64,000 nucleotides of DNA, taken from NCBI GenBank assembly GCA_033439295.1, contig JAVTLE010000017.1, forward strand, positions 62,001-126,000, read 5' to 3'. The stretch comes from Deuterostichococcus epilithicus (Eukaryota > Chlorophyta > Trebouxiophyceae > Prasiolales > Stichococcaceae). A program made the position numbers and the translations under genes. This document shows, one piece after another, positions 2,510 to 34,335 of the stretch; the first letter of the stretch is position 1; every line of letters starts with the position of its first letter. The notes beneath the pieces are model-generated. The model searched no databases. It was not told where the DNA came from and saw nothing but the letters and a program-made list of their open reading frames with translations.

Positions 2510-3060
2510 TGCTGAGCTTGCTCGCATTCAAGCCTCGCGGCCGGTCACTGGCGCATCAGCCGCCCTGCTGCCGCCGGCTGGGATATCAGCGTCGCTTTCG
2601 TGGCTGTCAATGAGTACAGTTTGGCCAGCCAACGAGCAGCGTGCTTCTTGCCGAGCAGCCGGTCTTTTGCACTGTTGCGGCTAGATTTTCAGTGTCAGAC
2701 ATCAATGCGGCAAACTTTCACAACCATAACCACGAAACATGTCCGTGTGCCATCCTCACGCTTGTGGTTGGTAAGCTGAGGAGCAACTCGCTCGTGACTT
2801 ACCGTACAATACAAGTCTAGGCAAGCGCTGATGCAGAGTGGCACCACCTCATCATTGTAACTTGCTAATGATGGACGCACCTGGGCTCGAGGCTTTCGAC
2901 AACCTACGACATCAATGGCTTACGGAGGCCCCACCGTTTCAAGCACGATGACACATGAATACAGGCTTCAGACTGGGCGCCCAACCCCAATAAACCACAT
3001 TGCGCAGTGCAACACGTGCCAAAACACTGCGCACTAAAAGCACAGCGTAGCGTGTGGCCA
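2510..3060. other. Convergent intergenic region, IleRS 3' side
   Basis: This lies between the IleRS stop (plus strand) and the stop of the minus-strand gene at 3061. It should hold both 3' UTRs. Apart from the TGTAA at 2856-2860, I see no convincing coding exon. Confidence 0.7.
2856..2860 (+). terminator. Putative TGTAA polyadenylation signal for IleRS
   Basis: TGTAA is the usual poly(A) signal of green algae. This copy lies 347 nt downstream of the IleRS stop codon, on the correct strand. No cDNA end is available to confirm it. Confidence 0.45.
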
Positions 3061-5651: not shown

Positions 5652-6332
5652 TATGTAGAGTGCGCCAGAAGCTGTTAGTCTTGTAGGAGTGGTCCAGTGG
5701 GTTTGGAGCAGCAATGCCGGACTACTTCCCTCATTTCCGTGCAGCGCGAGCGCGTCACATCAAATGCGGCGCTTAGAGCAAGCGCCTCAACGCAGTTGTA
5801 ACCGCATCCAGAGGTACATCCATTCGATATTTTCTGGAATCGTTGGCGAGCACGACTTTGTCAATGCTCGAGCGGTCAAGCAGCAGTGTCGGAGCTTGCT
5901 CCGACACCCGGATCGCAGTGTGAAATGCGATGCGCAAAAGTCAGGGAAGCAGTGGAGAGCGCGGTGCAGCCGTTGGAAAGTTTGAGTAGCCAGGAAGGAT
6001 GCTATGTCGCTCTGCCGCGGATCCGGTCAGCACACGAGGGGTATCACCTACGGCCCGCTATAAACCCCCATGCACGTGACCCTCCCGAGACCAAAACACA
6101 GCATGGTGGCTCAAATCAGACCAGTTCGCGGTGACTTTGCCCTCGTCCGGCCCTGATTGACGCGCTGACCTGATCCACGAGGTCCACAAGCCGCATCGAC
6201 ATGGCGTTGAGGAAAGGATCAACGCTGAGAAGACTTTTGATCGAGAGCTTCCGCTAGCAGAGTGTCCATCCTACTCTTGTGATCTTGGGTCTGAAGCGAC
6301 CTACAGCACATAATCGTTCGAGCTTGGCTGGA
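5652..6332. other. Divergent intergenic region upstream of BIG
   Basis: This holds the 5' flanks of the minus-strand gene (start 5651) and of BIG (start 6333). It is less GC-rich than the exons. I see no TATA box or recognisable operator. A bidirectional promoter is possible but unproven. Confidence 0.6.
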
Positions 6333-9300
6333 ATGGCACCGTTCGGCCTGTCTCTGTTTGGCGACTCAGGCGACGCCCAGCTGCCCGACAGGATCGAGCC
6401 GTGTAAGCGCGGCTCGGATGCGGCCTTTGAGAAGTTCATCGACGGTGCTCTGGCGCGCATCTACAACGAGGCCAGCGGCAGGTCGGCGGAGGGTAAAGCG
6501 CTGCGCGCGTCCTGCAAGCCGCTGCTGGGTGCGCGATCCGGGCCTGCTCACGGCAGACCGTCAAAATGCTGCAGATCTCCTCTGCCAGCAGAATCAAACG
6601 TTGAACGGAACGGCGCAACCGACATATAGGTAGCCGGCTGTGTGGCACACCCAGCGCAGACAATGCAGGACAAGCGAGAGCTGGCATCCCTGGAAACCTG
6701 AATTTGACCAGCCTTTCCGAGTGCTCATCAAGGCACCCAAGCTCACCTGGCGTGGCCTGTGAGCGGCGATGCGGACCTGAGCCCGGCTCCCTGGGGAGCA
6801 GCCGTGCGCCTGACAGATAACCGAAACCGATGGAACCGAGCAGGCGGACGGGGAGGGCAGCACCAGCGGCCGGGTGGCGGCTCCGCTGGACAAGACCCCC
6901 CGGCGGCGCGAGCCCCAGGTGATGTCGACGAACTCACTGAGGAAGCGCCCTTGCCTGGCGTCTCGCAGACAAGCTGCGGGAGGATGGAGAGGCAAACCCG
7001 GACAAGCGGGTCACGGCGCCGCTGGACAAGCCGACGGCGGCGTGGGTGCTGGAGCCGCTACGGCTGGCGGCCGGCGCAAGCAGCCACAAGCTAGTGGAGC
7101 CGGCCCTCGGCTGCCTGCACAAGCTGGTGAGTGGATGCCACAACAGGGGGTCGCCCGCAGCAGGGGCGCATTGTTGTACACTGCAAGATCGCGCAGTTTC
7201 AGCTGACGGCTCCTGCGCCTGGTGACCGGCGCCTGCTGCCACCTGCTTCTGGAGACTACCCGGCCACGCTGGGTCAGCCTTCGATGCCCTCTGCTTCCGA
7301 CAATCCGCATAACAACTCAGAGGTGTGCCGCATCTGACCAATGGCGCTGGTACACCCCGCAGCAAGCGCGGACAGCTACATGTGGGTGAAGGGATCATAT
7401 AAACTCATTCCTGGCGTTCCTCTGTACCAAAACTTTCTGGTGTTCATCTGCACATGCTGGCGAGCCCTGCGCTATCAGCAGCCCCGGCTGGCATAGCACG
7501 CGCTCGGCCGATTGGCAGAGTGTGTCCAGCAGATCAACAGCAGGTCGCCATCCGTGCTGGATGCTCATTTCACATGCCCTGGTGGTCAACAGCTCTCTCC
7601 AGCACCCGTGCTGCTGCCGGCCCCACTGCCTGACCCCCAAATCGCCTGGAACCTGCATCAGCTTCTATGAGCACGCCGGTGACTCGTACCTGCACTTTCA
7701 ATTCCATAATTGAATGCGAGCTCAGATGTGGATCTGCTACTGTCCGGTCAGTGGGCGCACTCATACCTCGAGCAAGACACGCGATTGTCTGTCATCCTCT
7801 TCTGAAGCTTTGCTGAAAAACTCCATCGACTCCAGTCAGGTCGGTTGCGTCTGCTGCAGGTGGCTTACTCGTACCTGCAGGGGGAGAGCACTCGCTCAGG
7901 GCGCCTGGACGACGACACCCTTATCTCCCAGGTGCCCACACTTCCTCTGCTGCTGCTGGCTCGTCCTCTTGGGCTGTCGACTCAGGAGGGGCAGCCAGCG
8001 CGGCACTGCAGAAGGCTGCATGCTCCTCTGCAAACTGCCCGTCTCACTCGAGGTGCGCGCGGAGGCGGCTGCGGCAGCACGTGCAGTTGCAACGCTGCCG
8101 GGCTCGAGCGAAGGGTGGACGCACCGCGCGTGTCTCCGTCCTCACGCAACGGCCCTGTACTGTGTGTCTGCAACGCGTACATGCAGGGATCAACTAAGAG
8201 CGCGACAGATCAGTGCCCAGACACAAGTGCTGTGCATGTTTTGGGCATTGCCTCTGCATCATCGCAATACACAGCAATGCCAACGTGCAGCTGGCAGTCC
8301 CTTTCTTGGTGCCATCACGCTGCCCTTCGGAGGGGTGAGTGGCTGCTCCTGACACAGTCACCCACCCGGGCCTGCCACATATGGGAAGGCAGATATAGAT
8401 GAATTCGTGTCACAGGTGGTGGGCATCGTGTCGCGGTGCGGCGAGAACTCGAATGCGGACGTGCAGCTGGCGGTCATCCGGGCGCTGCTCACCATCACGA
8501 CCGCAGAGCACTTCCGAGCGCACGGCGATTGCCTCGTCCAGGTGCCGCGACTATGCTGCCTCCTGTAAGTGTGGAAACCTTTGTTGCGCTCAGCTGTGGA
8601 CAACCAGCACAGCGGAGCACTTTTTGGCGGCAAAGCGACCGCCTCGTGCAGGTGCCCTTGCCTGCATCGTCAGACGCTGCAAACGCTGATACTGTCAGCC
8701 GTTCAGGCGCTTGACGTCGCCGCTTGTGGCACTGTCGGACCGGATTGCCTGCGCCAGCGTCCAGTCCTCCGTTGCTAAGCTGGACCTTCGGGGCCAGCCC
8801 CGTCAGAAGAGTCCTCACAACAGGAAACACATGAGACAACCCCGAAACTCCCGAAGCAGCGGTTTTTCAGCTTTGCAGCCGCACATGCAGGCCATTCGAA
8901 CAGTCTTCAACGTGGCGATCGGCGCTGACAGCGCCGACATCCAGCGCACCGCCCGCAATGCGCTGCTGCAAATGCTCAACACCGTGCTGAAGCACGTCAC
9001 CCTGTACCCCCTGGTGAGAGTCTCCTGCTGTTGGTCCCGAGTCGCTGGTTCCGGCAGCTCTGACAATATTTCCAGAGACACGTGCCAGTTTTGGAAGTGC
9101 AACTTGAAGTCAGAGAGCATGTGACAGCTGCAGACCGCCTGCGCACGCTTATCGCACCGGGAGGCTTCCCCTTGCACTGCATCGGTTTTGAGCTCGCGCC
9201 TGCACACGCAGTCCCGCCGGTCGTCGCCGGCATACGCCCTGGACCCGGCGTACAGCGGCGGCTGGACGCCCGGGGGGCCGGAGACGCCTGCGTCGGCGTT

Positions 9301-12300
9301 TGGCCGTACGCCCACGCACGGCAGCTCCCCGCACCTCGGCCCGGTGCCAGAAGGCGAGCCTGCTATTCAGCATTCACCACTGCGCCAGGGCACTCTGTGG
9401 CTGGGTCTGATCAGGAGCTGTGTGTGGCAAGTGCGCATGCGCGTGTGCGGCCAGGCGAGTGGCTGCGGCCGCGAACCCAGAGGCACGCGTGAGGCGTGCA
9501 CAACTGCTGAAAATGAGCAGGGATTTTCCTCTGTTCACTTGTCCTGTGAGCCGGCTGCGCCCTGTCTCTTGGAGATCTTGAATTATGTCTGTGCAAACCA
9601 TCGTCTTGCCAGGGCTGCTGCACAGCCATGTCATGTGCTGGTACCTGAGTACGAGTAGGGAGTTCTAATCGATATCAGCAGCATCCTGCCTTCGAAGAGC
9701 CAGGTAGACATCGTCAAGAGGCACCGGCTCAGGAAGGAGCCAGACGCTGATGCGACTGCGCTAAGACTGCAGGCGCGCCGCTACCAACGGCAGACGTGGC
9801 AAGCACGCCGCCGCCGACGCCGCCGCCCACGCCCCCGGCCGGCAACGAGGCTGGGGAGGCCGGGAGAAACAGCAGCGGCAGCGGCGACGGTGCTGCGGAG
9901 TCGCCACGCACACCGCGTCCGCCAGGTGTCGCTTCAGTTCACACATCGAAAGCCGCGCTTGTTTCACAGTGGTGTAGCCTGACGCCGCAATCTGGCCGAG
10001 ACAGCCATAGAACTTTCCTGCACTCTTTCACCCGACGACACCCAGAACGAGGCGGAGCAGGCCGGCTACACACAGCCTGTATGCGGCGCCATTGCCAGGC
10101 CAGTTTCAGGAACGGAAGCACAGAAGCATCATGCGCTGCAGGCACATTGTCGAATGATGCGGCCGCAGCGGAAGACGGCATGTCGCTTGCCGTAAGCGGG
10201 GTTGGCCTGCCGCCGCTGCGCCTGAACTCTGGGGCTCCAGCGTCACCGGCGCAGACGCCGCGCCGCGACGGCGGCAGCCAGGAACGGGCCGGTTACGCCG
10301 CCGGCGGCAGCGACGGCGGCGGCGGTGGCGCGGATGCGGAAGCGGGAAGCAGCCCCGCGGGCAGCGAGGCAGTGCGCAGCGCGATGGCCAACACACGCAC
10401 GGCGGAGCTGGCATCGCTGGCGGAGCAGGCAGACATCAGGTGAGGCGTGCGACCTTGCAGGTCACCCAATGTTATGCTGGCGCCAGTCTGGTCTCAGCAA
10501 CGGTAGCAGCAACGTCAAGAACGTTGCGACGGCCCAACCTGGTGCCAATCTTCTAATTCCGTGCTGTTGCTGCTTTCCGAACGTTGAGTATGGACTTCAA
10601 GCAGCGCTGTAGGCAGGTGCGCGAGGCTTTGCGCTCCTCCCAAATTCTGTATTGTCCGGCAAAGCTGCCCAGCTAGCTTGATATGGCGGTCAGCAGGAAG
10701 TGGTGCAGCGTGTGGCTTGCACCGCTCGCGGCAGTCCCTCCGACCCTACTCGCAGCTCTGAAGCTGGCGCTTGGTTAAGTGGATGCATCGTTGGGGCAGA
10801 GATGCCATCTCCTTCCCCACTGCTCAGTGATGATGAAACAATCACAGGGTGTGGTGGGAAGGCGCTGGACGAGCCGGATCAGTTTCGGAGAAGAAATCAC
10901 TGCAGATCGGTGCCCTGCTTTGATGCATCTATCTTGCTTCAGGAGCAGGTTTCTATGCGCTTCTGACAGGGGACTGTGCAGGAGCTGGGCCGGCTTGATG
11001 CGGAGCCAGAAACGGCAGCCGCCATGCAGAACTCCTGTCACGTTCAGAAACAACGAGGCTGTTGCACCAACAGGGGCCTGGAAAGGGCGCTGGACCAGCT
11101 CGATGCGGCATCGGAGGCAGCGGACGCCGCGGCAAATGCGGAGGGCGGCCAGATCGCGACGCCGCGCGACGCCCGGCGGTCGCTGATGCGGGAGCGCCGC
11201 GCCGCCGCCTGGCGCCACCTCAACGTCGTGGAGCGGGACCTGCTCATCGTCGTCACTGCGCTGTGCAAGGTAGTTAGGGGTTGTTTGTACGGTGGTACTG
11301 AAGGAGCTGTGCAAGGTGGCTGGGGGGGAGGAGCAGGGGGTTACCGGAAAGGGGCTTTCATGCCAGCCACCAGGGAGGCGCCGGCGCACCGCAGTCGATA
11401 CGGCCTGGTAGTCTCCGGCTGCTGGCCTTCGTTTGTGCAGCAGTCTACAGCAGCGTCTGAACCCCTGTACGAGTGGCTGCTGTTCTGGAGAGGGCTTGTA
11501 CTGCGAATGTCGCAGCACTGCAGACTTTAGCACCGTGCCATGCAAACATGGACCTTGGCACTCGCGGTGTGCACCTTCAGGACCATGCAATATCTGTTTC
11601 GCAAGTTCTGCGGCTTGCTGGCGGACACTGTAGCGCCAAGCTCATGTCGATGGGCTGGCTCCCAAGCAGTGGTATGTAGTGTTGTGTCCGGGTGCCCGAT
11701 TCTGCACGAGTGCCGCAAATGCCAAGGCACTCGTCTGAATGATGCCGTCCGACTCAGTGATTCAAATGTCTGCTTGAGAGCCACAGCTGCAGCGCATCAG
11801 CGCGCCCAGACTGCTGCACACGCATGCGCACCCATGGCTTGCCGGATTGGCTTTTGGCGCCGTGGCCCAAGTCGAGCGCATCTAGGGCCAGAGGTAGAGA
11901 TTGAAAATGCAGTCCAACTGCAATTCAGTTGCTAGCAGCAGGAACAGCGCTTTGCTTATCCCATGCTGCAGACCATGCCTTGGACCAAGGCGTCGGCGTT
12001 GACTCCGGGTGGCGGCGCGGTGGCATGCATGCATGCACCCAGGCCAGGCTGCTGCTGCGCTTGAGGACGCTGCCACATCAAGAACTGGTGAACGCTTGCG
12101 ACCTGCAGATGGCGGCGCGGGAGACGGGTTTTGGCGCGGTGGAGGCATATATGCACCGGGGCAAGCTGCTGGCGCTGGACCTGGTGGTGCGCCTGCTGGA
12201 GAACCCGCTGCAGGTGAGTGATGTCAGGGTTATGTGGATTAGGGTCTCCTCTCTACTTCCACTTTGACTCTTAACATCAAGTCTGATGCTTTCGATTGCT

Positions 12301-15300
12301 GAACTCGACCTTGCTCTCTTTAGATGGTTAGCAGGTAGGGAGCAAGGGCGTTGGTCGTGTGGAGAAGTTGCTGTGCTAGCGGACGCGATGTGCTCGCAGC
12401 AGGCAGTGCAGCAGCCTCGAACAGGTGCAGGCGTCCTGGCTTACAGCGTCAGAGCACGCCAGAAGACCAACGATGGGCGCCGGCAGAAGCTGGCGCTGAA
12501 ATTATGGTGAAAATGCAGATGGGCAGGCTCCGGACTGGTCCGCTCTGGAGCCTGCTCCTCCATGCTTTCTTGCCACGGCCGCAGCGCCAGCGTGCACCAT
12601 ATCCCGTGATCCTCGTGTGTGCGCCAGCAACCACTGCAGGGCGCCGGGCGACACCCAACCGGGTCTCGCGGCGCATCTGTGCCAGCCGCTGCGCTTGGCG
12701 CTGCTGCTCAACAAAATTAATACTTCATACGAGTCACTGAGCAGCGCCCCTCTCTCACCCTTCAGGTGTGGGGCAACATCCGGCCGGAGTTTGCGGAGCA
12801 GCTGCGCCAGCCGCTGTGCCTGGCGCTGCTGCGCAACTGCACCAGCCCCTATGACGAGGCGTACAGGTTTGGTCAACTCTCACTATGCACAACAATACAT
12901 CTGTACGTCTGTCCTAATCATTGCAAAACGTATTGTCTGTATGTCCAGCATAGCAGCAAGACTTCTGATGGTTCATTTATTGCAGCCTGGCGGCGCGCCT
13001 GTTTGGCGGCCTGCTGCTGCAGCCGCGGCTGCGCACAGGGCTGAAGGCGGAGCTGGGGGCCTTCTACCCGCTGCTGCTGCTGCGGCCCATGGAGAACGAC
13101 AGGTGGGGTCACGACCTAGGGTGTTGCAGACACCAGTCCACGTCACCACTCCCTGAGCAAACGGTCAGCCGGTGTGATGTGACTAATGAAAGGCGTATTT
13201 GCACGATTCCAGATGCTACAGTGGATGCGCTGTGCAAGTTGGAGGTGGTTCTAGCAGACGGCAATTGGAACGAAACTGTCGAGATATCTGCACACGAAAG
13301 CGGGCTGCTGCTGTGCTGATTTCACCTGACGTTGCCGTTTGGCGCCGCAATGCTCGTTACGTCATGCCACTGCTGCTGGAGTTTCAAGCGGCTCGGGTGA
13401 AACTCGACGAGCATCTTGGCGCCATGGTGATATGGCAACAGTCATTGATGGCGACTCGGAATCAAGCACCAATTTTCGCACACCGTCGGTGTGTCATTCA
13501 CCATCAAGCCCACCCCTTCGCTGCAGGACGGACGTGAAGCGTCTGCTCAGCACAGTGGAGGGCTGGGCGCTTGAATCCGGTTTGCAGCCTTGACTGAACC
13601 AGCCAAGCCATTCGCCGCTGCCCACTCCTCAGAATCGGTCCTGTGATGCTGCAGGGTGGAGCCGGCGCAGCTGCGCAGCGCGCTGGAGGCGCTGGCGCGG
13701 CTCACGGCTGACCCGCAGCTCCTCGTCGACTTCTTCGTCAACTACGACTGCGACCTGCAGGCGTGTCTCTAGGGGTAGGGTTTAGGGTTCTTGCGGCACA
13801 CTGACACAGGACGTACCGGTGCTAGCGCCCCCTGCCACGGCGTAAGCGTGCGCACCTGCCCAAGGGCCAGTACGAGAGTACCACTCTGGTCACTCGGGCA
13901 GTCCTTCGGGGTGCCACTGAAATCACTCAATGGAGGCGAGGACCAAAGTGTCTGCACGCTCATCGGATTGCTTGCTGCTGAGCCCATGGTACTCCCCGCA
14001 TCCTGATGCATAGTCATGCGTCCTGGCGTCCAGGTGGCCGCCCTGATGGACGCACATTCGAATGGCGCCTGGCGCGAAGGCGTGGCGGGCAGCATCTGCG
14101 ACAGCACTTTGCTACACCTTCGATGCCCTTGTCATGTGTGTGTTGCATGATGACAGGCGGCAAACCTATTCGAGCGCACGGTCAAGGGGCTGGCGCGGTG
14201 CGTGGTGGCGGCGCCGGCGGTGGACGCGCGCGCGCTGGCGCAGAAGGCGCAGCTGGCGCTGCTCGTGTCGCTAGACGCCTGGGCAGGGCCGCTCAAGGTG
14301 ACGATCTTGAGCTTCAGATTGCGGCTTTTCTGACTTCCTGTCCTGCGTAAGGTTTTTTTGAGACATTTGCACGGTCTGGCGCAACCGCTGCTGCAGCCGC
14401 TGCTCGTCTCGGTGGACGCCTCCGCACCGCTCAATGTAAGGAGCCTCACACATCTGGTAGGGTGTACATGTAGCGTCCCCCAGCCTCGAAATGCCACAAC
14501 AAGGTCACACTGCCAAGGGACTGCTCCGCCCACTGTGTCCCCAATGCACATCCTGGTGGCGGCTGCGCTGCAAGCGGATGCGAAGCTCGACTGAGGCTGA
14601 AGGCATACTTTACAAGACGTTTGAACATGGCCAGCCCATGTGCGAATACCCCAGCATTGCCCGCGCTTTTGTCGCGCTGCACAGCAGCATCTGGCTCGGT
14701 AAATCTCCACGGCGCTCTGAACTGGAGTAACTGCTGGCGTGCAACTCTGGAGCAGTGCCCAGAGTTGTACGCCGGGTCGTTTCCCACTTTGACCAGCTGC
14801 GCGTTGCCTGTTCATCGGGTGCAACCTTTGCTGGGGACAGGCAGCTTCATGTCGTTCCTGCACGCAGCGCACACAAGAGAACAGGGTGCTGCAGTGTTGC
14901 CGCTGCTCTTGGCGCAGCCATGATGTCCTCCTGCAGCCGAGAGAGCAGACCAGCAGCTGTTAACAGGTTCGAGACTCAAGGCTCTAGTCTTCTAACCCCT
15001 CGGTAGCAGTACGCCCCCACACGTCCGCACCTCGCATTGGTTGCATTTCGACCAAGGTTGTAACACTTTGCCCGCAAGATGCACGACGCCAAGGGAGCCT
15101 ACAGGGAGTCTCCTGTGACCTGGAGGGAGGAAAGCGGAGGAGCAGTGAGCTAGCTGTGACCCCCAACCGCGAGGCGGACGTCTGTTCGCGAGGCAGCTTT
15201 TTCTGTGACGTCCAGGATGCGGCGCGTGACCTGGAGGGAGAGGAAGCCCAGTCGGACGAAGATTGTGCTAGCTGTGGTTCACAACCGAAAGGAGTTTCAT

Positions 15301-18300
15301 CTCATGAGGTAGGTTGTCTTTGAGTATACAGGATGCGGCGCGTGACCTGGAGGGCGAGGAAGCCCAGTCGGACGAGGAGTGGCCGGCGCCGGCGTCGCTG
15401 CGGCGGGCCAGCGCCGGCGCTGGCGCCAGCCCCACCGCCGGCGGCGGCGGCGGCCCCGGAGCGACGCCGGAGGAGGTCGCTCGCTTTGGCGCGGCCAAGG
15501 AGCGCAAGCACCTGCTGGCTGCCGGCATCGCTGCTTTCAACAGGTGATTTGCACTGAGACATTGAGACTTCGGAAAGATGGCGCATCGGAATGCCATGCT
15601 GGCATGTTGAGAGCCTGACAAGTAGGCACGCGACCACATGCTGGCAGCCGGCATTGCTGCTTTCAACAGGCGCTTGTTGGGTTGCACGGCATTGAGGGAA
15701 TCTGCGTTGGAGGTCATGCGAGCTGGCGTGTGCGACCCTGACAGGCAGGCGGGCGACTGCCTGCTGGCGAATGGCGCTGCTGCCTGCATGTATAAATTGT
15801 TGCATCGCCACCAAGAACACACCTCATATCTTCACGTTGCGGTAGCGCGCACAAAGATCCTGCCATGGCCAGCGGTTCTCGCTGGGGCGCGTACATTTCC
15901 CTGGGTGTATGAGTTGGAATCGCCCGTGGATGGTCTCCGCCTCGAAGACCCCCACCACGACCAGGTGCTCGCCGGGAAACTCGAAGCCAGCTGGGCTCTC
16001 TGACAGGCCCCAGCTGTCTTGGGTGCCACCTCCCAGGCAATCACCTGGAGGCCATTCCCACCCATTTGTGATTGGAGCTGCCTTTGTGTGCCTTTGGGTG
16101 TGCCACGCACCACAAGCACTGGCATGCCTCTGTCGAATGCCACCAGGCAGGGCGAAGAGTGGGGCGGCACCACCGTGTCGTTTGCCGTAGCAGTGCACGA
16201 TCTTCTGTTCGGCCACTCGCCCCCTTCGCCAAGCAGGAATGCGGGCAAGGGCGTGGTGGCAATGGCGGCAGCCGGCATTGTGGAGCGGTCTCCGGCGGCG
16301 CTGGCGGCGTTCCTGCGGGAGCACGAGGCGGAGCTCGACAAAATGCAGGCAAGACGTTTGCACGGATCTGAAATGATGAGCTGATGCACTGCAAGCGCAA
16401 AAGTGAGCAGGAGGGCCCCAGTTGCAGCGGTAAACACCCCTGCAGACTGGATCACATGTGCCTCTGCCTCTGCCTGAGCAACAATCCCAAACTTGCGAGG
16501 TCGATTTGCTATGATCAGCATGTCTCAGCAATGTGCAACACAGATGGGGGAATTCCTGGGCGGCCACGAAAAACTGGCGGTCGCGACCATGCACGCCTAC
16601 ATCGACCAGGAGGACTTCGCGGGGCTGGCCATCGACGGCGCGCTGCGCCAGTTGCTGCACGGCTTCCGCCTGCCGGGTGTGACGGCGGTCAAAACCTTAA
16701 ATATCTGATGTAGGATGATCCTGCCGGTGTCAAAGTTGTGCGCGGCAGCCCCAGGCCAGAGGCAGCAGGCTCTATGCCTGTGCTTTTACCTCAGCATTGT
16801 CTTTATATGATGGACGGGTGGGACAGGCAGGGTGGTGGCTGTCATTGGGTTGGTCCGGTGATTGGACCGAGACTTTGCACCACACACCTGCAAACCACAC
16901 TGGTCTTAACCCCCGCGGCTGTGGCGAATGAAGCCGGGTGCCCAGCGTGCAGCCTTCATATGGTGTCCTGCCGCGTAGAGGCTGCAATCGTTGCGGGGCC
17001 CCATATACAGCATCTCCCATGCTGCATGCGGCCATCGCATGATGCACCATCTACAGCGGCACCCTGCTCCATAGATGCCGCTTGTGTGCTGGATGCTGCT
17101 TTCTCACGCAGGCATGGGCGCAGATATGCAGACGACCCGGACGAGCATGAAGCAACCCTCAGACGAACAACAATAGGCGCCTGAGACTTTAGACAATGAT
17201 CTGTCGCAACCTGCAGGCGAGGCGCAGCAGATTGACCGCATCATGGAGAAGTTCGCCGAGCGGTTCTGCGACGCCAACCCGGCAGTGTTTTCCTCTGCGG
17301 ACGGGGCTTACCTGCTGGCTTTTGCGCTCATCATGCTCAACACCGATGCGCACAACCCCATGGCGGACGCCCATATGTCGAAGCAGGACTTCGTGGGCAT
17401 GTGCCAGGTCCAGCAGGCGAGTCGTCAACTGATCAGTCTTCGTAACATCGCAACCAATGTTAGTAACGAAGCGCTGCCAACAGGCACAACCGGCAGTAAG
17501 TCCACTCATGTTGCTGGAAGTTCTTCTGGGCCTGTGTTACGTTAGCAGGTGGGCCAGCAACAAAATCAGTGCTGTAATCATGCCCTGGGAGCAGTCGGGC
17601 TGCCTGCCAGCTTACTTTCGCGCGCCTGCCGGAAGTTGGCCGTGCACAGGCACGACGGCTTCGGTCGTGGTGTGCAGGACCTGCTCTTCTGGCAGTCAGC
17701 GTGCGTAGGCATGCAAGCAGCCTGTGCAGCAAGCAGTGCAGGTGTCATAGGGTCCCACGTGCATCTCCTCTATCTTCGCGGCCATGACATACATCATGCA
17801 GCACGGGAAGATGGCGGCAGTAGTCTGCTGTACCCACCATAAGCTGGTCCTGCCGGCATGCGTTGCATCCTGACAACTTGCCATGCTTTGCACAGAGGGT
17901 GGTGACAGTGAGTCAGCGCCCACACTGCCGACTGCCAAGCCGGAGGCAACTGGCAACAGACGAAAGCCTGCGTTTCAAGTATCACAACCAATCGCAGCTA
18001 AATCGAATCTTTCCAAACCCGTCCTCCGTTTACCCATGTTGCTGGGCGGGGACGGGGAGTTCCAGGCCATCCTGCCGGCTGCCGAGCTGGAGGCAACTGG
18101 CACAAGACTATCGCGTACAGTCCAAACAATGACGCAGACGAATTCGGCTTATGTTTCACCATCCGGCGCAGGGAGGGGACGGTGAATTCGAGGCCATCCT
18201 GCCGGCTGCAGAGCTGGAGGCACTGTATGACCGCATCCTGGCGGAGGAGCTGGTCGTCAAGGACTCTGGAGACGTCGTTGGTGGCGGCGGCGGCGGCAGC

Positions 18301-21300
18301 TCGGCGGCCCGACGCGGGCAGCACGGCGGCGCCCGCGGCCGTGCGCNGCTCAACGCGCGCCTGGCGGCGGCGCTGGGCCTCACCCAGCTGCTGCTGCCCT
18401 TCAGGCGAGTCGGACTGCGAAGTGGTTTAGGTGCAGTTATATCCTTTGGGGATTTTCCTCTTGTTCTTTTGGGAAACAATGCTGCTGTTTCACCGAGTCT
18501 GTCTATTGCATCTGACACTGCAGCGTCTAGCGGTCGCACCGCTTGCTTCAGCAACGTGTGCCTGCCATGTACAGTTCCGTCGTTTGCTGGCAGTCTGCCG
18601 GTGCAAAACGCGTTTCAGAGCTGCGAAATCTTACAGTGCATCCCCAAATACAACATCATTTGGCACGGTCAACACGTAACGGGCACTGTCTGCCTGTCGT
18701 AAGCGACAGGTAAGCTGTGGTGCATCTGCCACTGATGGGACTCGTGTTTCGACTAGCAGCTGTTCCATGCTGTTGACCGTCAGGCCGGAGCTCAAAGCCT
18801 GCCTCAGCCGTTTCACCTGTGGGTAGTCTATTGCAGCCTCTTGGAGTCTGAGCGGTTGCGGCAACAGGTGTGCACTCCTGCAGAGCCAGCGCGGCGTGGG
18901 ACAAACAGTACGGGGTGGGACGCGGAACTGCGGCAGTCGCTGACAGGCTGTGCAGACTACGCATGAGCTCTTCAGGATCAACTCGGTCCTCTAATCAGGG
19001 TGATTGCAATTTGAGTTAACCCTACAGGGCGGGCGCGGTGTGGGACAAGCAGCATGGAGTGGACGTGGAGCGGCGGCGGCTGCTGGAGGCGACCCGCGAG
19101 GCGGTCGCGCGGGGGCTGGCCGCCGGCAACCTGTGGCACACCGCCAGCCACGCCGAGCATGCGCGCCCAATGCTGCAGGTGCTGCGTGTTGAATCCCAAA
19201 CCCCGAGAACCCTGCTGCCGCCCGGAGGCTGAACACTGTTGTGATGTGCAGTGTCCTTACGCTCTTGCACGATCTGCTGACATCAACGAGACACGGAGGA
19301 ATGTCTTGTTGGGCCAGATTTACTGGCACTGTGCTGCTGCAATTGCTGCACTTGGCATGCAGCCTCCCAGCAGAAAGGCCTCTGAGGAGTGCTGCAGCTT
19401 AGGCGGCTCTGTCGTGGCAGCACTGTGCCGACTGCATGTGACATAATCAGGTCAACGACCGCTCCAGACAAGAACGCAAAGCTGGTGCACGTCCTGCTGT
19501 GCTAAGCGTTTTGGTGGCGCAGGTCTGCGGCACGACACCGCTGTGCAGCCGGCTTGAGGCAGTGGCAGCGGCGCCAACTGCAGCTGCCGCCAGCAGCTAC
19601 TCAGGCACAGCGACGAAACGGCCCGCGAGTTTTCTACTGGTGGAGGCGCCCTGTTGTGACGCCTCGGTTTTCGGCGACGCGCTGGCCTGCAGGTGTCGGC
19701 AGCGCTGGCCACGGCACCGGCGCATACTCCCACAACCTGCAATGTGCGCTAGGAGGCATTGAGCTGATCAAGCACCACGATGATGCAATGCAGGTCAGCG
19801 GCGAGGCGTTGCTGCGGGGCCTGCGGGCGGCGCTGGCGGCCGCTCCCGACGCCGCCGCTGCGGGCCCGGCGCTGGACGGCTACACACTCGCCGTCCGCCT
19901 GGCGGGCGTGTTGGGCCTGGACGCACTCGCAGAGGCCTGCGTTGACGGTAAGCTGTCAGTCCGCAGTGTGGTGTGCCATGGGGTCGCCGACCCGCTGTGC
20001 CGGACAGCTACGCAGACAGCTACACGCTGGCCGGATCAGGCAGGCGAGCGTGCTGAGACCTGGTCTGCTGGCCAAGGCCTCCATTAGCGGTGTGTTTGTG
20101 ACAGAGACATCTGTACGTCCGCTCTGCCGGCTCAGACACCCGTTGAACCACCACCTTGATGCAGCGCTGGCGCAGGCGGCATGCCGGCGCCAGCAACGCT
20201 CGGCTCGTCACTGGAAGCGTTTCGAGTGGTGGCGCTCAGCGCTCCGACCTCGTGGCAACGTCCCTTAACTGAAGTGCTATAAGCAGGTTTTGCTGCGAGG
20301 AGGTGCTGCTGTAACAAGGCAGTTTTGCGATGCACCGCCTCTCTTGCTTCCTGCAGCCCTGGCGGAGGCGGCGGGCGTGGCGGCGCCGGCGGCGCCGGGC
20401 TCGCCGGCGGAGGCGGTGCAGGTGGCGGCGCTGGGCGCACTGGTTGGCCTGGCGGGCGGTCCCGAAGCGGGCCTGCTGGGCAGCGGCTGGCCAGCGGTGC
20501 TGCGTACGCTGTCCGAGCTGCACGCGCTGCAGGTGTGTTCCCTACTTGGCTTGCAAAATACTACACTGTAAGAGTTGCTGAAAAAAGAGTTGCTGGAAAA
20601 ACATTTTGAAGGAGCAGGTAGTCGGTCGAAAAGAACCAAGTGCTGCAGGTGCAGCTGCGCCCAGTGGTGGAGACACAGCCCGTGTGCTGTGGGTTTGCCA
20701 GAAAGCACGTCATCCTGTGTGTGTGTGTGTTGCGACCTGTACGCAGCGGGGGCATTGGCCAAGACTGGAGGCGTCGTCTCGGAAAGGGCCGCAAAGTGGA
20801 TTTCAGGCCGCGCCACGGCTGCATGTGATGCGTGCTATCTAGCCATGCACATGCTCTTGTTGTGGGGCCGGCTCCGAGCTCGAAAGCCATGAACCAGCTG
20901 CGATAGCTTCCATGCTACTGTTGCACATCCTGGAGGCACGAATCTCAGGCTGACCAAGGTGCCAAGGTCGGAAGAGCGGGTGCAGCAACACTGCTCGATT
21001 GTTCTGCACCCGGGCAAGCAACCACCCTGCAAGCAGCGCGCATCGCTCGCAGACGCGCTCTTCACGCTGGACTTGCATGCGCAAGGCAAGCATGCAGATG
21101 GTCATTTGCTGCATGCCTTTGCGCGTCGCGTCCAGTGGTCTGGCACCTTGCGGCAATGCATGCCCGTGTCAACAACGTGTTGGCACAAGCCTGGGAGTGC
21201 CAGGCCATTCGAGGTGCACCCTGCTGTAACCCGTTCACTTCGATGAAACATTTGGGCGGTTTGACTAGATGCAAGACACACAATTGTGGGACACTGCTGG

Positions 21301-24300
21301 CAGGAGATATAACCCTCGGAAGCTTGCCGCTGAAAGGGTGCGCTACCAGGCGGCTGCGGGATTAGAAAAATCAAAATAATGAAAATTTAGTTTCCCTCCC
21401 GTTGCGAACCGCGAAAGTATGTCTTTTCGGAAATTGTGCATCCGCAGGGCACGCTGACAGAGCAGGCCGGCGCACGCGCCGCGGTGGCAGCTCAGGCGGC
21501 GGCGGCCGGCGGCGGCAGCACTGCCGGCAGCATCCTGACCACCATGTTTGGCCGCAACGGACCGCCAGTGGTGGCGGGGTATGCCGCCCCGCAGGCCGCT
21601 GCCGCAGCCGGCGCAGGCGACGAGCCGCAGGTATTTAAATATCTGTTTAGACATTCCCTTGACACTTTCCTTCATGTCCAGGAGGGTCATGTCTGAGAGG
21701 GCCATTCTGTGACCCTGGTCGCCTTTTCATGAGTTATATTACAGCGTCAATGACAGTTGCACCTGCAGCCTCGTTGAAGGGGCAGCATACATGCCATCGG
21801 GCGTGTTCTGCCACCGCGCAGTAGCTGCGGAGGATAATGTCACTGACCTTCTGCCGCCTGATGCAAGCAACTAGCCGTAGGATGCCGCAGTGTGCGCATC
21901 ACCTGGGGGTGCGCTTTTTGCGAGCACCTGTCAAGGTGCACTGCGGTTGCCTGCCCGCTGCACTCTGTGACAACCCAGCTGCGAGCACATGCCACAGCCG
22001 TCAGCCGGCGATGAAACAGCTGCAACGGCCTCGCCTGTGCAATGCAGCGGTGTCGCATGTCAGTTGCATGACAATTAGGTGGTACTCATACGTTTCCGTT
22101 TACAATCATACAGGCGGCGCAGCCGCCGGCGGTATCAGGCCCGGGCGCAGCACACGTGCTGTGGGCGGCAGGGCCGGGGGCGGCTGCGGTGGAGCGCGTG
22201 TTCGAGCGGTCAGCGCGGCTCAACGGCGACGCGGTTGTGGTCTTCATGCGCAGCCTGGCGGCCATCAGCCAGGAGGAGCTCGTTCCTGTCCTGCTCACTG
22301 ACAGGCCCAGGTGGGTTGTTCGCGTTAACTGGCTTCGAAGGGCCCTGGAAACGGAGTCTGCCCTGAGAGGTAGTTGTGGTCTGCCTGGGCAGGCAGCCTG
22401 GCGGCCATCAGCCAGGAGGAACTCGTTCCGGTGCTTCTTGCTGACGGACCCGGATGTGATGCTCGGGTCACTTGTCTCGAAAGCGCCTGGGAAAGAAGCT
22501 TCCCAGGGCAGGGCCGCAGTGGTCTTCATGCGCGGGCAGCCTGGCGGCTGTCAGCCAGGAGGCGCCTGGCCCTGCGCTGGTCACTGACAGGCCGAGGTGG
22601 ACCATAGGGTTGCAGATCGCCTCGGCAAGTGTTGTGGCCTCATGGGTGGACTTCGCACTGTGGAGCACTGTGGAGGGTTGGTAGCACGTTGACGGCATGA
22701 GCGTGCATGCTTTTGAAAGGCTGGTCCAAACAGACCCGGAAGCGCTGCTGCACAGCGTCAACTCGGATGGGCCAATCTCGCTGCCGGGAGGCGCGATACC
22801 AAGGAGCTTCTTGGCGCCTGTGATTTCCCTCAAAGGCGGCATGCTTTGGGGCTGGGTTTGCGGGGTTGAATGTGTGACCGGCCGCCAACTGAGCGAGCTC
22901 GGCGCCTGTTCTCCAGGCCCACTTTTGCCGACTGTTCCTCAGCTTAGCTGCGTTGACGCTTCCCATCCGGAACTGACATGGCTTCCAGCAAGTCGTCGAT
23001 GTGTCACATCTCTGTCAGATTATGATTTCGTTGCATGTGAGAGGCCATCAGGACGCCATGCTGCGCTCAATTCTTGAGCTGGCAGGCCAGCAGTGCGTAG
23101 CTGCGGCGGCCGCCGGCGTAGGCGATTCAAAGCCAGTACACGGCCACGGCTGCACCCCTGGCTGTGGTCACGACGCTGCCGCTCGCCTCTGCTGCCGCAG
23201 GCGTACCACACGGCGCGACTGGTGCAGCCCGCAGCGGCCAACCAGGGTGCCGCACAACCACCAGCTGGGCTCGCGAGCGATTCACTCTCGGCTGAAGAAG
23301 CTGACGCGGTCTCTGACTCTGCTGCCTGCCCCGCATGCTGCAGGACGTACTGCCTGGTGCGGCTGGTGCAGTGCGCGGCGGCCAACCTGGGGCGCATCCG
23401 CCTGGTGTGGGGCCGCCTGTGGGCTGTCGTTGCGCCACACCTCGTCTCCGCCGCCTGCGCCAGGTGCGGCGCATGAAAACCCTAGACTCACCCTGCCTGA
23501 CCTCTTCGGCAGTGGTCCAATCCACAAGTGGACACAGGGTGCGGCGGGACGACCTGAGATCGGCAGTGGTTTCCAAACTGCAGTGTTCAAGCTGTCGCAC
23601 CACACCCTGTGTCTGCGCCTGCGGCGGGTGCTGTTGGGGGCTGTGCTGGCCTGTACAAGCTCCATGCTCTGGCTGTTGTCGTCAGAGAGAGCCTCTGCCA
23701 TGTAGAAGGCCTCATGTGTGCTGCGGCACGTGTAGTGCACCACACCGCAGGTGGCACAGCGAGAATGCCCTTCACATCAGAGATGCCTGGGTGGCAACTC
23801 CTCATGCAGACAGTTTCGCCATTGCTTGCCGCAACGGCAACACTTTGTGCTGCTGCGGCGGAGCAGCTGACTGTCCAAGCCAGTCTGGAGATAGTCCTTG
23901 CTTACATCTGAACGCGTCCTCAAACTCTCATTCAAACCTGTTTCTGCGTCGCAGGGACGATGATATTGCGCTGCTGGCGGCAGAACAGCTGGGCGGCCTG
24001 GCCTCGCGGCTGCTGTCACGCGCCGAGCTCAGCCACTTCACACACCAGGTGCGACCAAAGTCAATGTAAATGCCTTCTGCCAGCTGCTATCTCCCGCCTC
24101 CTGCAAGCAGCCGATGCTTGGCTCGGTGTTGCGATACCCCACACCGCTGATGTGCAGAACACCCTGTAGTCGCATGGGCGCTCTCGGACACAGCGCAGAT
24201 CCAGCAGGGGGCTGTTGCCGGCAGACTGCTGTGCGCTTGTGTGCAGCCAGCTCCGAAACAGCAGCACCTTCTTGGTGGCTGCGGGATCCGATAGTGCTCA

Positions 24301-27300: not shown

Positions 27301-30300
27301 GCCTGGCTCCCTCTCAGCTGTCTTGCCTGCGTAAACCCTAGACCCAAACCTTGGCAGGGCCGGCGAGGAGGGTGCGGGACACCCCTGGGGGTACCTGGCC
27401 GGCGCATTTGGCGAGGTGGCGCGGCACGACCCGCGGCCCGCCGTCGCCGACGCCGCCGCGGGCGCGCTGCTGGAGGTGGCGGCGGCGCACGCCCGGGTCT
27501 GGGACGCCGCCGCATGGAAGGTTGGCAACCGCACAAGTCCACGCCTCGAGGCATCAGCATTGACTCTGCATCGCACAGTGAGTTTTAGGGGGTTTGGGCG
27601 GGTCCAGACAACGCGTTGCGAGGCATGAACGGGTGCAGAACCCAGCTGCGCCTGCGTGTTTGCCCCGAGTGCATGGCAGGGCCGGCTCTCCCTGCAGGTC
27701 CCGCGGTCGTTGGTGAGATGGGGGATGTCGAAGACTGCCGCTGCTGATGCTGCGAAGGCATGTTCCGGCGCCGTATGCCCAGGTAGAGTAACAATGAGTT
27801 GCCGTTGCGATGCAGGCGGTGCACGTGCGGGGCGTGGCGTACATGCTGGAGCTGCCGGCGCCGCCGTCCCGGTCCTCGTCCAGCTCAGCGCTGGCGCCGG
27901 ACATGGCAGCAGCCCCCGGCGCTGCAGCGGTCGCAGCGGGAGCAGCCTCCGGAGAGCGTCACGCTGGCGCCAGGTCGAGCACCGCTGATGGGGACAACAG
28001 CGGCGGCGGCGGCGGCGGAGGCAGCTTCCTTGCGCCGCCCGCACAGGCGCCGGCGGGCTGGTCGACGGAGGGGCTGCCGCGGCTGGTGCGCCACGGCGCC
28101 GCACACTTTCCGGCATACGCCCGCCTGGCGGCACAGCACTATCCTGCCTTCGGCGCCGGCCTTCTACGGCAGGTGTGGAGTCGATCAACCCTCGTCGCGC
28201 TCCCAAAGCCTGCCTGTTCTGCAGACAGCTTCATCGAAACCCATGGCAGTGCACCGTCCACTCCGCCTGGCGGCATAGCACTATGGCGCCCTGGGTGCCG
28301 GCCTGCTGCGGCAGGTGTGAACACCGACGGTGTTCTGATCCTCCATCCTTGTGCTGCACAAGACATGTAGCTTGCAGACATCACCTGACATGTTTTTCCG
28401 GGACGGCTCTTGGTTTGCGGTGTGTCTGCGCGCCAGTCAGAAGGGTCTTTCGACCCCGGTGCCTGTGGCTTGCTTGAGGCATGAGACCCGTCACAACACC
28501 GGATTGCGGTGCTCAGGGCGTTCGGCAGTCTGCCCGGCAGGTTCCTGGCAACCCCATTCTGCACTCGCTAATGCGTCAGACTTCCATTGCAACATTGGCT
28601 GCGCCTTGCGATGTCTAAATTTCGTGGCAGTGAGACGGTGTCTCCCTAGCCCGAGAGGCTTACTAGTAGCGTGCAGCACGGCCTCAATCTCTCCCTTGCA
28701 AACCTACCCGCTTGCTATCGAGCCTGTGGTGTGCAGGCTGGTTTGAAGGCCGTGTCGCCACCCTGGCGGGCCTCACGCACATGCACAGTCTTTTGCTCAG
28801 GGGCTCTCCACTCCGCGAGGCAGCTGGCGAGCGCAGCAGCTGCCATGCGAGACCTTGGCCTGCATCTGCGCCGGCAGTCTTACTTTGTGCTGACCACAGT
28901 CTGTGAGCGGCGCAGCGGCGCCGCGGTGATCTGCTTCGTGACTACACGCCGTGGGTATGTGCACCTCGAGGTTGCCCTTGTGGAGTCGGCACAGGCACAA
29001 CAGCATGTGGTCTTGCTCAGTTCTCGCATGCGTGTGCTCTGTTCTGTGCAGGCACTGGCGACGCTGGCGCGCTACGGGCGTGCCCCGGAGGACATTGCGT
29101 GTGGTATCGCTCGATCCCTCTCACGCGTCTACTACTTCCCTTGCAGGCGCTGGCGACGCTGGTGCGCTACGTGCGTGCCCCCGAGGAGGGGCTGGCGGCG
29201 CACGGCGTACGCCTGGTGGTGCGCCTGGTCGATGCGCTGGCGCCGGCGCTGGACGCCCCAGGGTGGGCCGCCGTCGTGGACGCGCTGCTGGCGCTGGCGG
29301 CGGAGGACCCGCTCAGCAGACTGGCCCCGGAAGCAGCGTCAGGTGGACTCCTGCCCGGCCCCATGCTGCAGGGTTGTGATCTGCGATGTGTGAAAAGCAG
29401 CGCAGAGCCGGCCAGCCCAATTCGGTGTGCCAACGCGCAATTAATGCCCCTAAGCCGGCCGATGTGGCTTGTATGCATTGCTCGCCGGTTGGCACAAGCG
29501 CATGGCGCTGTGTGCGGTGGCGACTCATACTATCCACGCCGGCTCTGGCGCTGCCTTGGGACATCCTGACATGGCCCTGAGTCATTGCAGCAACGCTTTG
29601 ATGAGCCCAGGTCAACACGCAATGGCGCGCAGCTCCTGGCAGCAGCAGAATGTCTGAAAGTCACGTGCCGATCGACTGACTCTTGAAAGATGCTCGCTGC
29701 TTGCTCGCTGCTTGCTCCAGCAGGAACGTATCACTCGCAGCGGTGCTTCTCGCTGAGCACGCTGTCAGGGCCTCAGCGCCCACTGTGCACACGTCTTCTC
29801 GCCCTGCTTGGGAGCAGGTCACGGGTTGCAGCCCTGACACACGGCGCGGCAGCTGGGTCGCACGCAGCCTCCGGCGGCGCGGGCGGCGCGCAGTTTCACA
29901 AAAGATGAAGATGAAAGGGGGCCGCTGACACACGGTAGTCATGTGGCAGCTGTGCTTCCACCGTGATTCCAGACGGTTTCCTTCGTCTCTGCAGGCCTGG
30001 TGAACGGTGAGGCGACCGGATCGCACGCGGGCTCCGGCGCCGGCGCGCGGGGCCGCTGCCGGGTGGTGGTCATGCTGCAGCGCCTTGTGGGCAGGGTGCA
30101 CCAGGCGCACGGCGGCGCGATGCCGCCGCCGCTGGCGCTGCAGCTGGTCAGCGTGCTGCAGGTGCGACATGGCCATGCCAGGTTTCCGGCATTCACGCCC
30201 TTGTGTGTGTTGATGTGTGTTGATGTGTGTTGATGTGTGAAGGGGGTCCACGAGTTTCACACACCCTGCACGGCGGCTCGCCAGTCGTCTTGCCGGCTCA

Positions 30301-33300
30301 GCAGGGATAGGTGGAGGCCGCACTGAGGTGCCTGCACAAATCTGGCCCTGCAGGTTTGGGAAGAGCCGCACTGGGGTGCCTCTCTTGTCACGAGCCATGA
30401 GCAGCACATCCGTCCTGCGCTGTCGTGTCGTGTGCATTGCTCTGGAGAGCCATAGCCCCTGGTGGCATCAGGCCCTGACTATCCTGGGCTGAATGGTCAT
30501 GCTGTGGCACTGGAGACCGAGGCCTCGTCTCAGTTCTTGTTTTTCAGGCGGCTGCTGACCATGGAGCGTGCAATGCAACCTGACACTTCACAACTCCCGC
30601 AGTCGTGATCTCTGCTGCTGCATTCCGCAGGACACAGTCGCGCGTGCCGCCGCCTTCAACCGGGACGCCGCCCGCCGGTCCACTGCGATGGGCGCGCTGG
30701 GCGTTCCTGCTTCCACCGCCGCCGCCACCTCGGAGCCTGGCGCTGCGCTGCTGCCGCCCGCCATCCGGGTGAGAGCCCAAGCGCCTGTGTCTTCACACAC
30801 ACACACACACACACACATAAAAGTCCGATCTGCTGCCAACCGTATGGTAGCCGTGCCGATCCAGAAGCCGCATGCAGCAGCAGCAGCGAGAGGCGCTGGA
30901 AGGTTTTCGCTGGATGGCGACCCTTCCGCCATGCTCGTTCAGGCTGCAAGGGATTTGGCGGCAATAAGTGTTCGAAGTCTGCATGCAGGCCACTCGCTGA
31001 CCAGTGGAGCAGCTTGTCGCTCGCAGATCTCTCCAGCCAATCTGCTATGTATGCCTGAAGGCTCCCGCCGGCATTTATCGCATGGAGCAGTCGCCATGGC
31101 CGCAGCCACAGCAGGCGCCCGTCATGGGAGTGCAGCACTTGCAATGCCTTCGATATGCGCACTGCCATTTCCTCACGACCTCATTGTAATGATTGTTTCG
31201 TGTCTCCGTCAGGCTGCCGCCGGGGCAAACAGCGACGCTGATCGCTGCGCGGCATGGTGCTGTGGCGGCAGCACAATTCATCCTGTCATCCACATTCCAG
31301 TCTCGCCATTTCACCGTCTGAGATTCCGCAATGGTCTCGCATCCTCAGGTTGCGGCAAAAGGACAAATGGCGGATGACGGTTCTGGCGACGCGCGTTCGG
31401 CTGCGGCGCAGTGCAGCGCTGTGGCGGCCGTGCAACAGCAGTCCATGGCGGCGGCGCAAGAGTAATCTCGCCATATGAACAGCAAGACGAACCTGGCAAC
31501 GACGTCTTTTCCTGGTCTGCCACAGGCTGCTGTCGGAGCAGACATCGATGACGACGGCCCGGGTGACGCGCTGGCCGCCGCGGCGCGGAGCGGCGCTGTG
31601 GCGGCGGCGCGGCAGGAGGCAGAAGGCGGCGCGCTGCTCGTGGCGGCACTCCTGCGCTGCATGTGCCCGGCGGGGGACGCCGCGGAACCAGACGCTCGGC
31701 TGCAGGCCAGGTGTGCTGGCCACGTAATGACCACCCACCAATCCACCAGAACCGAACCAGTGACAGCCTACAGCGCGTTGGTGACAGCCCTACAACGTTC
31801 AAAGTTCATCCTGCAGGGTCACCGCCGAGGCGGAGCAGCGGTTGCTGTCGGTGTGCCGCGCGATCGTGGTGCAGGCGGCAGCCGACGCCTGGGCGGCGCA
31901 CGAGGCGGCAACCGTGGCGGCGGCTGCAGCTGCCGGGGCTGGGGGCGGCGCCGCCAACGGCCCCGCTCCGGTACGAAATCCTACACCCTCTTGATGACGA
32001 TTGCGCGCCCCTCTGACCCAGCACCGTGATGAGCGCAGCGCGCTGGGAGCCTCGCTGATGGGTAACATGGCTTTTCGATGTTGCGGTCTGCCCTTGGTCG
32101 TTCGCATGCAGCAGACAACCTTTCCCTCTGCAGCATGATGCCCAGCTTGCCATACCTCGGCCCGCACAGCCCGCTGGAAGCGTGTTGCGACCGCCGCCCC
32201 AAGTCTGCCGCTAGACAAGCATCTGTGGCCTGGACGCTGCTCTGCAAAACCTTGCAGGGTGCAGCCACTGCACTTTCATCAAGGGTTATTGCGATGGATT
32301 GGCGGCTAGCACTGCAGAGCCCGCGAGTTGCTGGAGACGAGGGTCTGGGAGATTCTTCCAGGAGATGTTTCGTGTGTGAAACTGTCTCTGCCCCAGATCC
32401 ACAGCCCACGTGCGTCTCAGCTTGGCATGGCGGTGCAACACGCCGGCGGCGAGCGACGTGATGTGGCCACCAGCAGTGGCGTCCACACCGACGCCTCCCA
32501 GTCAGATGGACCCGCTTGGGAGGCGTCGAGTGTGACGACAACGGCTGGTGGCCATATCGCGCCACATGGCGACGTTGGCACACTGCTATACCCTTTGCCG
32601 TTCCGCCGCAGGGTCCCACAGCGGCGAGCATGAGTGTGCGGTGGGAGGCTGGCTTGTGCGGCTCATTGTGCCTTTGCATCCGCTGTGCGTAGCACNCCCC
32701 CCCCCTTGCGTTCCTCCTTACCACAGGGCCGCTCCGCGGCGAGCGAGGAGCTGGGCTTGCAGGCGCTGCTGCGTGGCCTGCTGCCGTCGTCGCCGCCACG
32801 TCACCCACGCGCATGGCCGTGCCGCAGGGCCGCCCGGCGGCGAGCGAGGAGCTGAGCTGGGAGGTCGCGGTCCGCGGCCCGCTGCTGGTGGCCATCCTGG
32901 AGGCATACCGCGCCGTGTCGCCCGACGCCTGGCGCGCCGAGCTCGCGTGCGTCACACCCGCTTTCCCCGGCGCTCTGTGTTGCTCGGCAAAATCCGGCCC
33001 AGCCCTTTCATACCTGCGTCTTCCTCTCGGAGCCTGGCGCACCGACGTCGCGGGCGGGCGCGGTTCTGNNCCCCCCGGGGTCTGGCGCTCTCGTCCTGTT
33101 TGGCGCCCCTCGCTGCTCGGCTCCGTGATGCGCCTGGCTGTGCAGCCCCAGAGGGCTGTGGACCCGGCACAGCAGCTCCGTGAGGGAGGCTCATCAGGGG
33201 GGAGCTGTGCTTGTAGGGTACCTGGGCCTGGGATGTGGCCGCCTCCACTACTTTTCCTTCTGTAGACGGTCAACAGGTGAGAGCTACCCTTTGCCTCCGC

Positions 33301-34335: not shown

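Follow-up and report, generated by a model that had tools for sequence, protein, structure and literature searches.

Decaying tandem copies of exon edges in the introns of a predicted green-algal BIG-type ARF-GEF gene

The introns of a predicted BIG-type ARF-GEF gene in the green alga Deuterostichococcus epilithicus contain direct, partly decayed copies of the edges of the exons that they adjoin. Our preferred reading, to which we assign a probability of about 80%, is that recurrent local head-to-tail duplication of ∼140-bp segments (mostly 95–180 bp), followed by neutral decay, lengthens these introns. Intron lengthening is usually attributed to transposons. Here the source of the intron DNA is directly readable, because the real exon provides a slowly changing reference for each copy.

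Results

The gene lies at 6333..34335 on the plus strand of the window (the whole 64,000-nucleotide stretch of DNA that we analyzed) and was modeled with GHMMs as 40 exons with a mean intron length of about 560 bp. In this working model, the exon set joins into a single open frame of 2058 codons plus stop. The exon core was stable across iterated plus-strand models with stricter settings and GC donors, and the model is ambiguous at 9.2–10.4 and 26.0–26.9 kb. A free gene prediction with 156 exons was overfitted and was discarded. GC donors occur at a high share of the modeled introns (5/39), after positions 9353, 13760, 16348, 17416, and 18404; the last four appeared in every one of the four model runs in which GC donors were permitted, and the one after 9353 in one of four. 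GC content is 0.74 in exons and 0.59 in introns. The first 1463 residues of the product matched the Pfam families DCB, Sec7-like_HUS, Sec7, and Sec7-like_HDS, and an earlier model of the gene matched Sec7 structures in the PDB. On these matches we identify the host gene as a predicted BIG-type ARF-GEF, and the domain content bears out the name that an initial annotation had given it. Viral and prokaryote contigs, searched with a 63-residue Sec7 query at a sensitivity that reaches close relatives only, yielded no relative.

Downstream of BIG, 17 exons were predicted at 40.6–51.2 kb (region B). They include an NAD(P)-binding part, and another part of the region matches GH5 mannanases in the PDB, with no Pfam GH5 match at E 0.001; the region is treated here as one exon set and may be two genes. 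Farther on, a predicted minus-strand gene at 51.8–63.9 kb has large exons in which a motif of ∼45 residues recurs several times, with a reading like 'DHPSRHIAPDGRRLSQL...AAALL...SLWLRALRQAAG'; it is also seen as repeats at 52–57 kb in self-BLAST. No tRNA was found in the window, nor any Rfam match at gathering score. A short CCCTAAA array (4.4 copies), which we take to be the plant-type telomere motif, lies at 1258–1289, more than 1 kb inside the window; like the high GC content and the genes present, it would fit a green alga. The last BIG intron holds a near-continuous palindrome of ∼480 bp (33146–33615; 72% self-complementary) that folds into a single long hairpin (z-score −15.5 vs. shuffles), with a CCCTAAACCC stretch near the loop; as a guess, it might represent a foldback element or give rise to small RNAs. 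Two more short imperfect palindromes, both without spacer, lie at 32457–32561 and 39753–39802.

Self-BLAST with a word size of 7 detected direct repeats beside exon edges from 12.6 to 32.9 kb, at offsets of 94–192 bp and one of 282 bp. Every repeat pair contained an exon edge, save one that joined two copies of the exon 19 start. Among the 19 rows reported by TRF, only 22250–22562 is an array of this kind. We then compared each BIG exon with all BIG introns, which gave 78 adjacent and 1482 non-adjacent pairs. Sixteen of the 78 adjacent pairs scored above all 1482 non-adjacent ones, and 21 exceeded the 99% point of the non-adjacent pairs (0.8 expected). Both counts were the same with two exon tables, the first of which broke frame at exon 30; a rank test of adjacent against non-adjacent pairs, run on the first table only, gave P = 6e-8. 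The same comparison in region B placed 4 of 32 own pairs above all 240 others.

A more sensitive scan covered 110 exon edges (BIG and the 17 exons of region B) and accepted a copy within 260 bp at a score of at least 36. Copies were found at 37 edges (23/55 acceptors and 14/55 donors), so that 30 of 55 introns had at least one. BIG alone contributed 31 edges on 24 of its 40 modeled exons and region B the other 6, 2 of them at offsets of 200 and 224. Control counts were lower throughout: 5 edge matches with reversed introns, a mean of 4.8 (maximum of 12 in 100) with dinucleotide-shuffled introns, 10 with reverse-complemented introns, and a mean of 8.4 (maximum of 15) with the flanks of other introns, a control that can include flanks from the same intron. 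Some five to ten of the 37 matches are therefore expected by chance. The initial annotation had reported relics of neighboring exons around at least eighteen of 39 exons; the relics are real and, with copies on 24 of the 40 modeled exons, that count is fair. It had described them for BIG, where they are indeed present, and they extend to region B as well.

These comparisons also bear on the idea that the repeats are mobile introners, or belong to a dispersed family whose resemblance to exon edges is a coincidence. Such elements would account for repeats that sit within introns. However, the copies match their own neighboring exon, and at E below 0.01, self-BLAST linked different places in BIG, beyond the local repeats, by only a single short direct match of 35 bp; the remaining matches lay elsewhere in the window and were mostly GC-rich or of low complexity. 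Sequence shared across many introns was not found by self-BLAST within the window. We regard this explanation as scarcely credible.

The relics could be aligned to their exons individually, and those described next all lie on the plus strand. At acceptor edges, the least diverged is that of the exon 15 start (exon part 15332–15381), at 15216..15265 with an offset of 116 bp, 47/50 identical positions, and the acceptor AG kept; a further, older copy of the same unit lies at 15115..15169, 111 bp from the copy at 15226. AG is likewise kept in the relics of the starts of exon 11 (12771–12837; relic 12646..12712, offset 125, 55/66), exon 20 (18889..18948, offset 144, 46/58), exon 22 (20167..20242, offset 192, 56/76), exon 25 (23202..23274, offset 144, 53/68), exon 34 (29147–29187; relic 29052..29092, offset 95, 37/41), and exon 39 (32828–32893; relic 32727..32794, offset 101, 54/65, also aligned at 48/57), and in two relics from the exon/intron comparison, those of exon 35 (29841..29889, offset 163, 38/49) and exon 37 (31360..31453, offset 177, 60/81). 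The exon 19 start (18172–18222) has a relic at 18045..18095 (offset 127, 46/51) in which the acceptor is lost and, from self-BLAST and the local repeat scan, a second, older copy at 17898..17961. Two other start relics belong to exon 2 (6976–7042; relic 6840..6908, offset 136, 53/63 with 10 gap positions) and exon 10 (11989..12072, offset 122, 59/73).

At donor edges, GT is kept in the relics of the ends of exon 4 (8482–8541; relic 8586..8651, offset 110, 44/60), exon 14 (14369..14434, offset about 140, 52/65), and exon 33 (28121–28172; relic 28263..28314, offset 142, 43/52), the last with one change to an in-frame stop. The relic of the exon 15 end (15503–15543), at 15629..15669 with an offset of 126, has GC at the copy's donor, and a further decayed unit lies beyond it at 15716–15783. 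Two copies follow the exon 24 end (22234–22308), one at 22373..22451 (offset 139–143, 65/75) and a second at 22519..22600 (offset 282, 67/78). In region B, relics precede the exon starts at 41446 (41322..41371, offset 126, 38/47) and 43096 (42967..43049, offset 129, 58/82, acceptor AG kept).

The alignments confirmed the relics that the initial annotation had placed at 8584–8656, 15216–15266, 18045–18095, 22392–22597, 28261–28316, 29049–29094, and 32727–32792. One that it had placed at 33868–34155 was also recovered, but its match is weak (33871–33920 vs. 34226–34275, 37/50 at an offset of 355, accompanied by an internal repeat with an offset of 107).

The copies are direct and same-sided and span a splice junction; exon-start copies were searched for upstream of the exon and exon-end copies downstream. 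Such geometry agrees with the origin by tandem duplication that the initial annotation had proposed. Offsets of the 37 edge copies had a median of 139 bp (quartiles of 126 and 164), and 32 of the 37 fell between 95 and 180. At some edges second copies lie farther out, and 6 of 32 acceptor edges exceeded the 98% point of the control at 200–300 bp. The duplicated unit, derived by hand from the alignments, comprises roughly 40–106 bp of exon, the remainder being intron. Its length of ∼140 bp is close to that of a nucleosome. The unit that had been described as exon-scale is thus a ∼140-bp segment straddling the splice junction. Acceptor copies, in a pattern likewise derived by hand, include at least about 35 bp of intron, which would fit the need for a working 3′ splice site in the downstream copy.

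The intron halves of the unit are duplicated as well. With the bases adjoining the splice site excluded, 19 units together gave a Stouffer Z of 5.7, and 210 mismatched intron-half pairs from 15 acceptor-side units averaged 0.00. Singly, homology of the intron half was clear in 4 or 5 of the 19 units, among them exon 15 (both sides), exon 24, and exon 34; most others did not show it.

Because tandem duplication is active here, the same process might have given birth to the introns themselves by duplicating exon segments (the AGGT model), and a junction-spanning duplication did give a new intron in potato (PMC4974935). In the crossed arrangement of that model, the end of the upstream exon recurs near the 3′ end of the intron and the start of the downstream exon near its 5′ end. 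In introns of at least 350 bp, this arrangement was found in 0 and 0 of 42 (130 bp scanned per far end), although old introns could have lost it. In these introns, 21 of the 42 acceptors and 11 of the 42 donors had same-side relics (1 and 0 in the reversed control), and 7 of 42 had relics at both ends, with 5.5 expected under independence. The absence of the crossed signature therefore points to growth of existing introns. It does not support the birth of new ones, the route that the initial annotation had raised, and we consider that origin very unlikely for the introns studied here.

We next asked what became of the copies after duplication. Identity in the 37 edge copies ranged from 71 to 94%, in agreement with the spread of ages that had been claimed for them. 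Across 21 copies, differences from the exon amounted to 57/378 (15.1%), 54/380 (14.2%), and 88/373 (23.6%) at codon positions 1, 2, and 3. These 199 differences comprised 82 synonymous and 117 non-synonymous changes, 1 of them making a stop. Frame-breaking indels were present in 13 of the 21 copies, and all indels but one were of a length other than 3. Both the codon-position pattern and the frame-breaking indels fit neutral, non-coding decay: by our own estimate, roughly the observed ratio among codon positions is expected when a drifting copy is compared with an exon whose changes are mostly synonymous. The best five copies, which were chosen post hoc and summed by hand, had 9/174 differences at positions 1 and 2 and 18/84 at position 3; this skew exceeds the neutral-copy prediction, and the post hoc choice limits its weight.

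The skew and the single stop among 199 differences are what might be expected if the copies were alternative or mutually exclusive exons retained for function, as is the survival of splice sites: with one base of slack allowed, 13 of 23 copies still have the acceptor AG and 6 of 14 the donor GT. However, the aligned copies are parts of exons rather than whole exons. Constraint on the copies as tandem coding exons was not found overall, given the indels and the near-neutral codon positions, and is less clear for the best five. The protein frame of BIG reads through without the copies, which are dispensable for the protein, as had been proposed. We judge retention for function to be unlikely.

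Whether duplication favors exon–intron junctions was examined with scans of two sensitivities. A stringent scan found 27 distinct local repeats scoring at least 36, of which 23 were exon/intron pairs and 4 were further copies in such arrays; none of the 27 stood alone in an intron. At the same score there were 103 direct scan windows and 2 reversed ones. With gentler scoring, 20 intron-internal clusters appeared (4 reversed), about 8 of which overlap exon-edge arrays, leaving ∼8 intron-internal duplications after background. Introns had been described as built from exon copies; exon copies are not their only source, and weaker, purely intronic duplications contribute too. By offset, the intron-internal scan windows scoring at least 36, counted with overlaps and with exon-edge arrays included, numbered 19 at 100–140, 18 at 140–180, and at most 4 in every other bin from 60 to 500. 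Because these offsets fall in the same range, the process seems active inside introns too.

We compared these counts with a simulation in which duplications were placed uniformly and decay was set from the observed copies. Pooled over ages, it predicts ∼1.4 detectable intronic events per edge event, from 1.8 for young copies to 0.2 for the oldest. Fewer intronic events were observed than simulated; therefore, junctions may be favored, or introns may decay faster than assumed. Selection on one of the two partners should keep exon-bearing copies recognizable for longer.

The mutational process itself could favor junctions, for example through chromatin, composition change, or transcription, beyond what survival and visibility of the copies would give. 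The stringent scan points this way, as does the simulation, in which intronic events outnumber edge events except at the oldest ages. So does the distribution of matching scan windows: the stretch at 34.4–40.6 kb, without confident exons, had 0 of 394 (0 reversed), compared with 119 of 1847 in BIG (7 reversed). Counts were 20/680 in region B (1 reversed) and 0/54 at 51.2–52.3 kb (0 reversed). However, positions 1–6300, also outside the gene, gave 4 of 400 (0 reversed). The sensitive scan also finds weak duplications inside introns, with units of similar length, and the decay of intron halves seems to outpace that in the simulation, so that detection bias may explain the skew. That no intronic repeat stood alone in the stringent scan is not proof that junctions are targeted; in light of the simulation, the sensitive scan, and the offset profile it is only suggestive. 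Targeting beyond survival and visibility is thus possible but, in our assessment, doubtful.

Discussion

Local duplication followed by neutral decay suggests a simple course of events. A segment of ∼140 bp would be duplicated head-to-tail in place, adding DNA to the intron. Where the segment spans a splice junction, the exon-side copy would keep working, and the intron-side copy would become dead intron DNA subject to neutral drift. The exon half of the dead copy would long remain recognizable, since selection preserves the real exon with which it is paired; the intron half would fade sooner because both partners drift. Copy ages would form a continuum, and the copies would probably not be spliced in. 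Ordinary break or replication repair could produce the duplications, for instance if staggered breaks were filled in and joined. The small tandem duplications that form at the ends of breaks (PMC8355091) would be a plausible source of the exon-edge copies.

The copies lengthen introns, as the initial annotation had held. Those still recognizable account for about one eighth to one seventh of the 30 kb of intron sequence in the two regions together (27 to 32 above-chance copies × 139 bp). Since old copies can no longer be seen, the actual share is probably larger. Copy divergence could thereby serve as a clock, and unit length as a ruler, for intron growth.

Several known systems resemble this one. 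Gao and Lynch (2009) reportedly found internal duplication of gene parts to be common; their duplications are said to alter gene structure, whereas those seen here are gene-wide, decaying junction copies. Intron gain by tandem duplication (the AGGT model) is reviewed in PMC3443670. In the potato RdRp gene, a tandem unit spanning the 3′ side of an intron and the 5′ side of an exon made a new intron (PMC4974935). Both share tandem duplication with our case, and the potato unit also spans a junction. In both, however, the new intron arises between the copies (PMC3443670, PMC4974935), whereas in our case an existing intron takes up the copy and no crossed signature is seen. The potato event, the closest plant case, is described there as a single duplication (PMC4974935), whereas the copies here are gene-wide. 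A survey of tandem repeats found an excess near intron–exon junctions, strongest in two green algae (PMC3887541). It shares the junction excess; its units were 1–50 bp only, and in the sections concerned, the repeats were not traced to exons. Among the matches listed in the open-licence PMC literature, none described copies of exon edges throughout the introns of a gene in an alga or plant.

The nearest counterpart is the sequence stuttering of chicken dot chromosomes (Hron et al. 2026, PMC12954441), in which "exon stuttering" denotes the copying of an exon edge together with its splice site. With the potato duplication, it is a close precedent for copies that the initial annotation had thought unusual. 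More than 90% of the chicken source sequences lie within 1 base of an exon border, and the exon parts measure 20–187 bp. Units are tens to hundreds of bases long, with a median of 4 and up to 44 copies. Length varies strongly between individuals, intergenic dot DNA is also affected, and the authors mention gerbil genes as well, with data not shown (PMC12954441).

Both systems show local imperfect tandem expansions in introns, a subset of which copies a lateral exon part with its donor or acceptor. In both, the exons are intact, the source sits at the exon border, intron-only expansions occur too, and the genes are GC-rich. Our introns hold local tandem copies, with exon-edge fragments and a splice site in the adjacent intron, at low copy number. 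To judge from these likenesses, the exon-edge copies look like the same kind of event as exon stuttering. Unlike the chicken case, ours comes from an alga, was read in one sequence, has mostly one to three decayed copies, and has a narrow unit of ∼140 bp. Incidence was 30 of 55 introns here and 190 of 5,572 dot introns in chicken (PMC12954441), figures obtained by different methods and thresholds. What is new relative to chicken is thus the algal setting, the narrow unit length, and the high incidence.

More speculatively, introns in this lineage might grow by a quantum, through junction-biased tandem duplications of ∼140 bp arising so often that one is still visible in about half of the introns examined. 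The length of introns in genomes of this sort would then consist for the most part of such units, stacked and decaying, and exon stuttering in bird microchromosomes would be due to the same process; we offer this broader proposal as tentative. The comparison suggests that birds are not alone in the instability reported in 2026 for the dot chromosomes of chicken, which may follow GC-rich genes in distant lineages.
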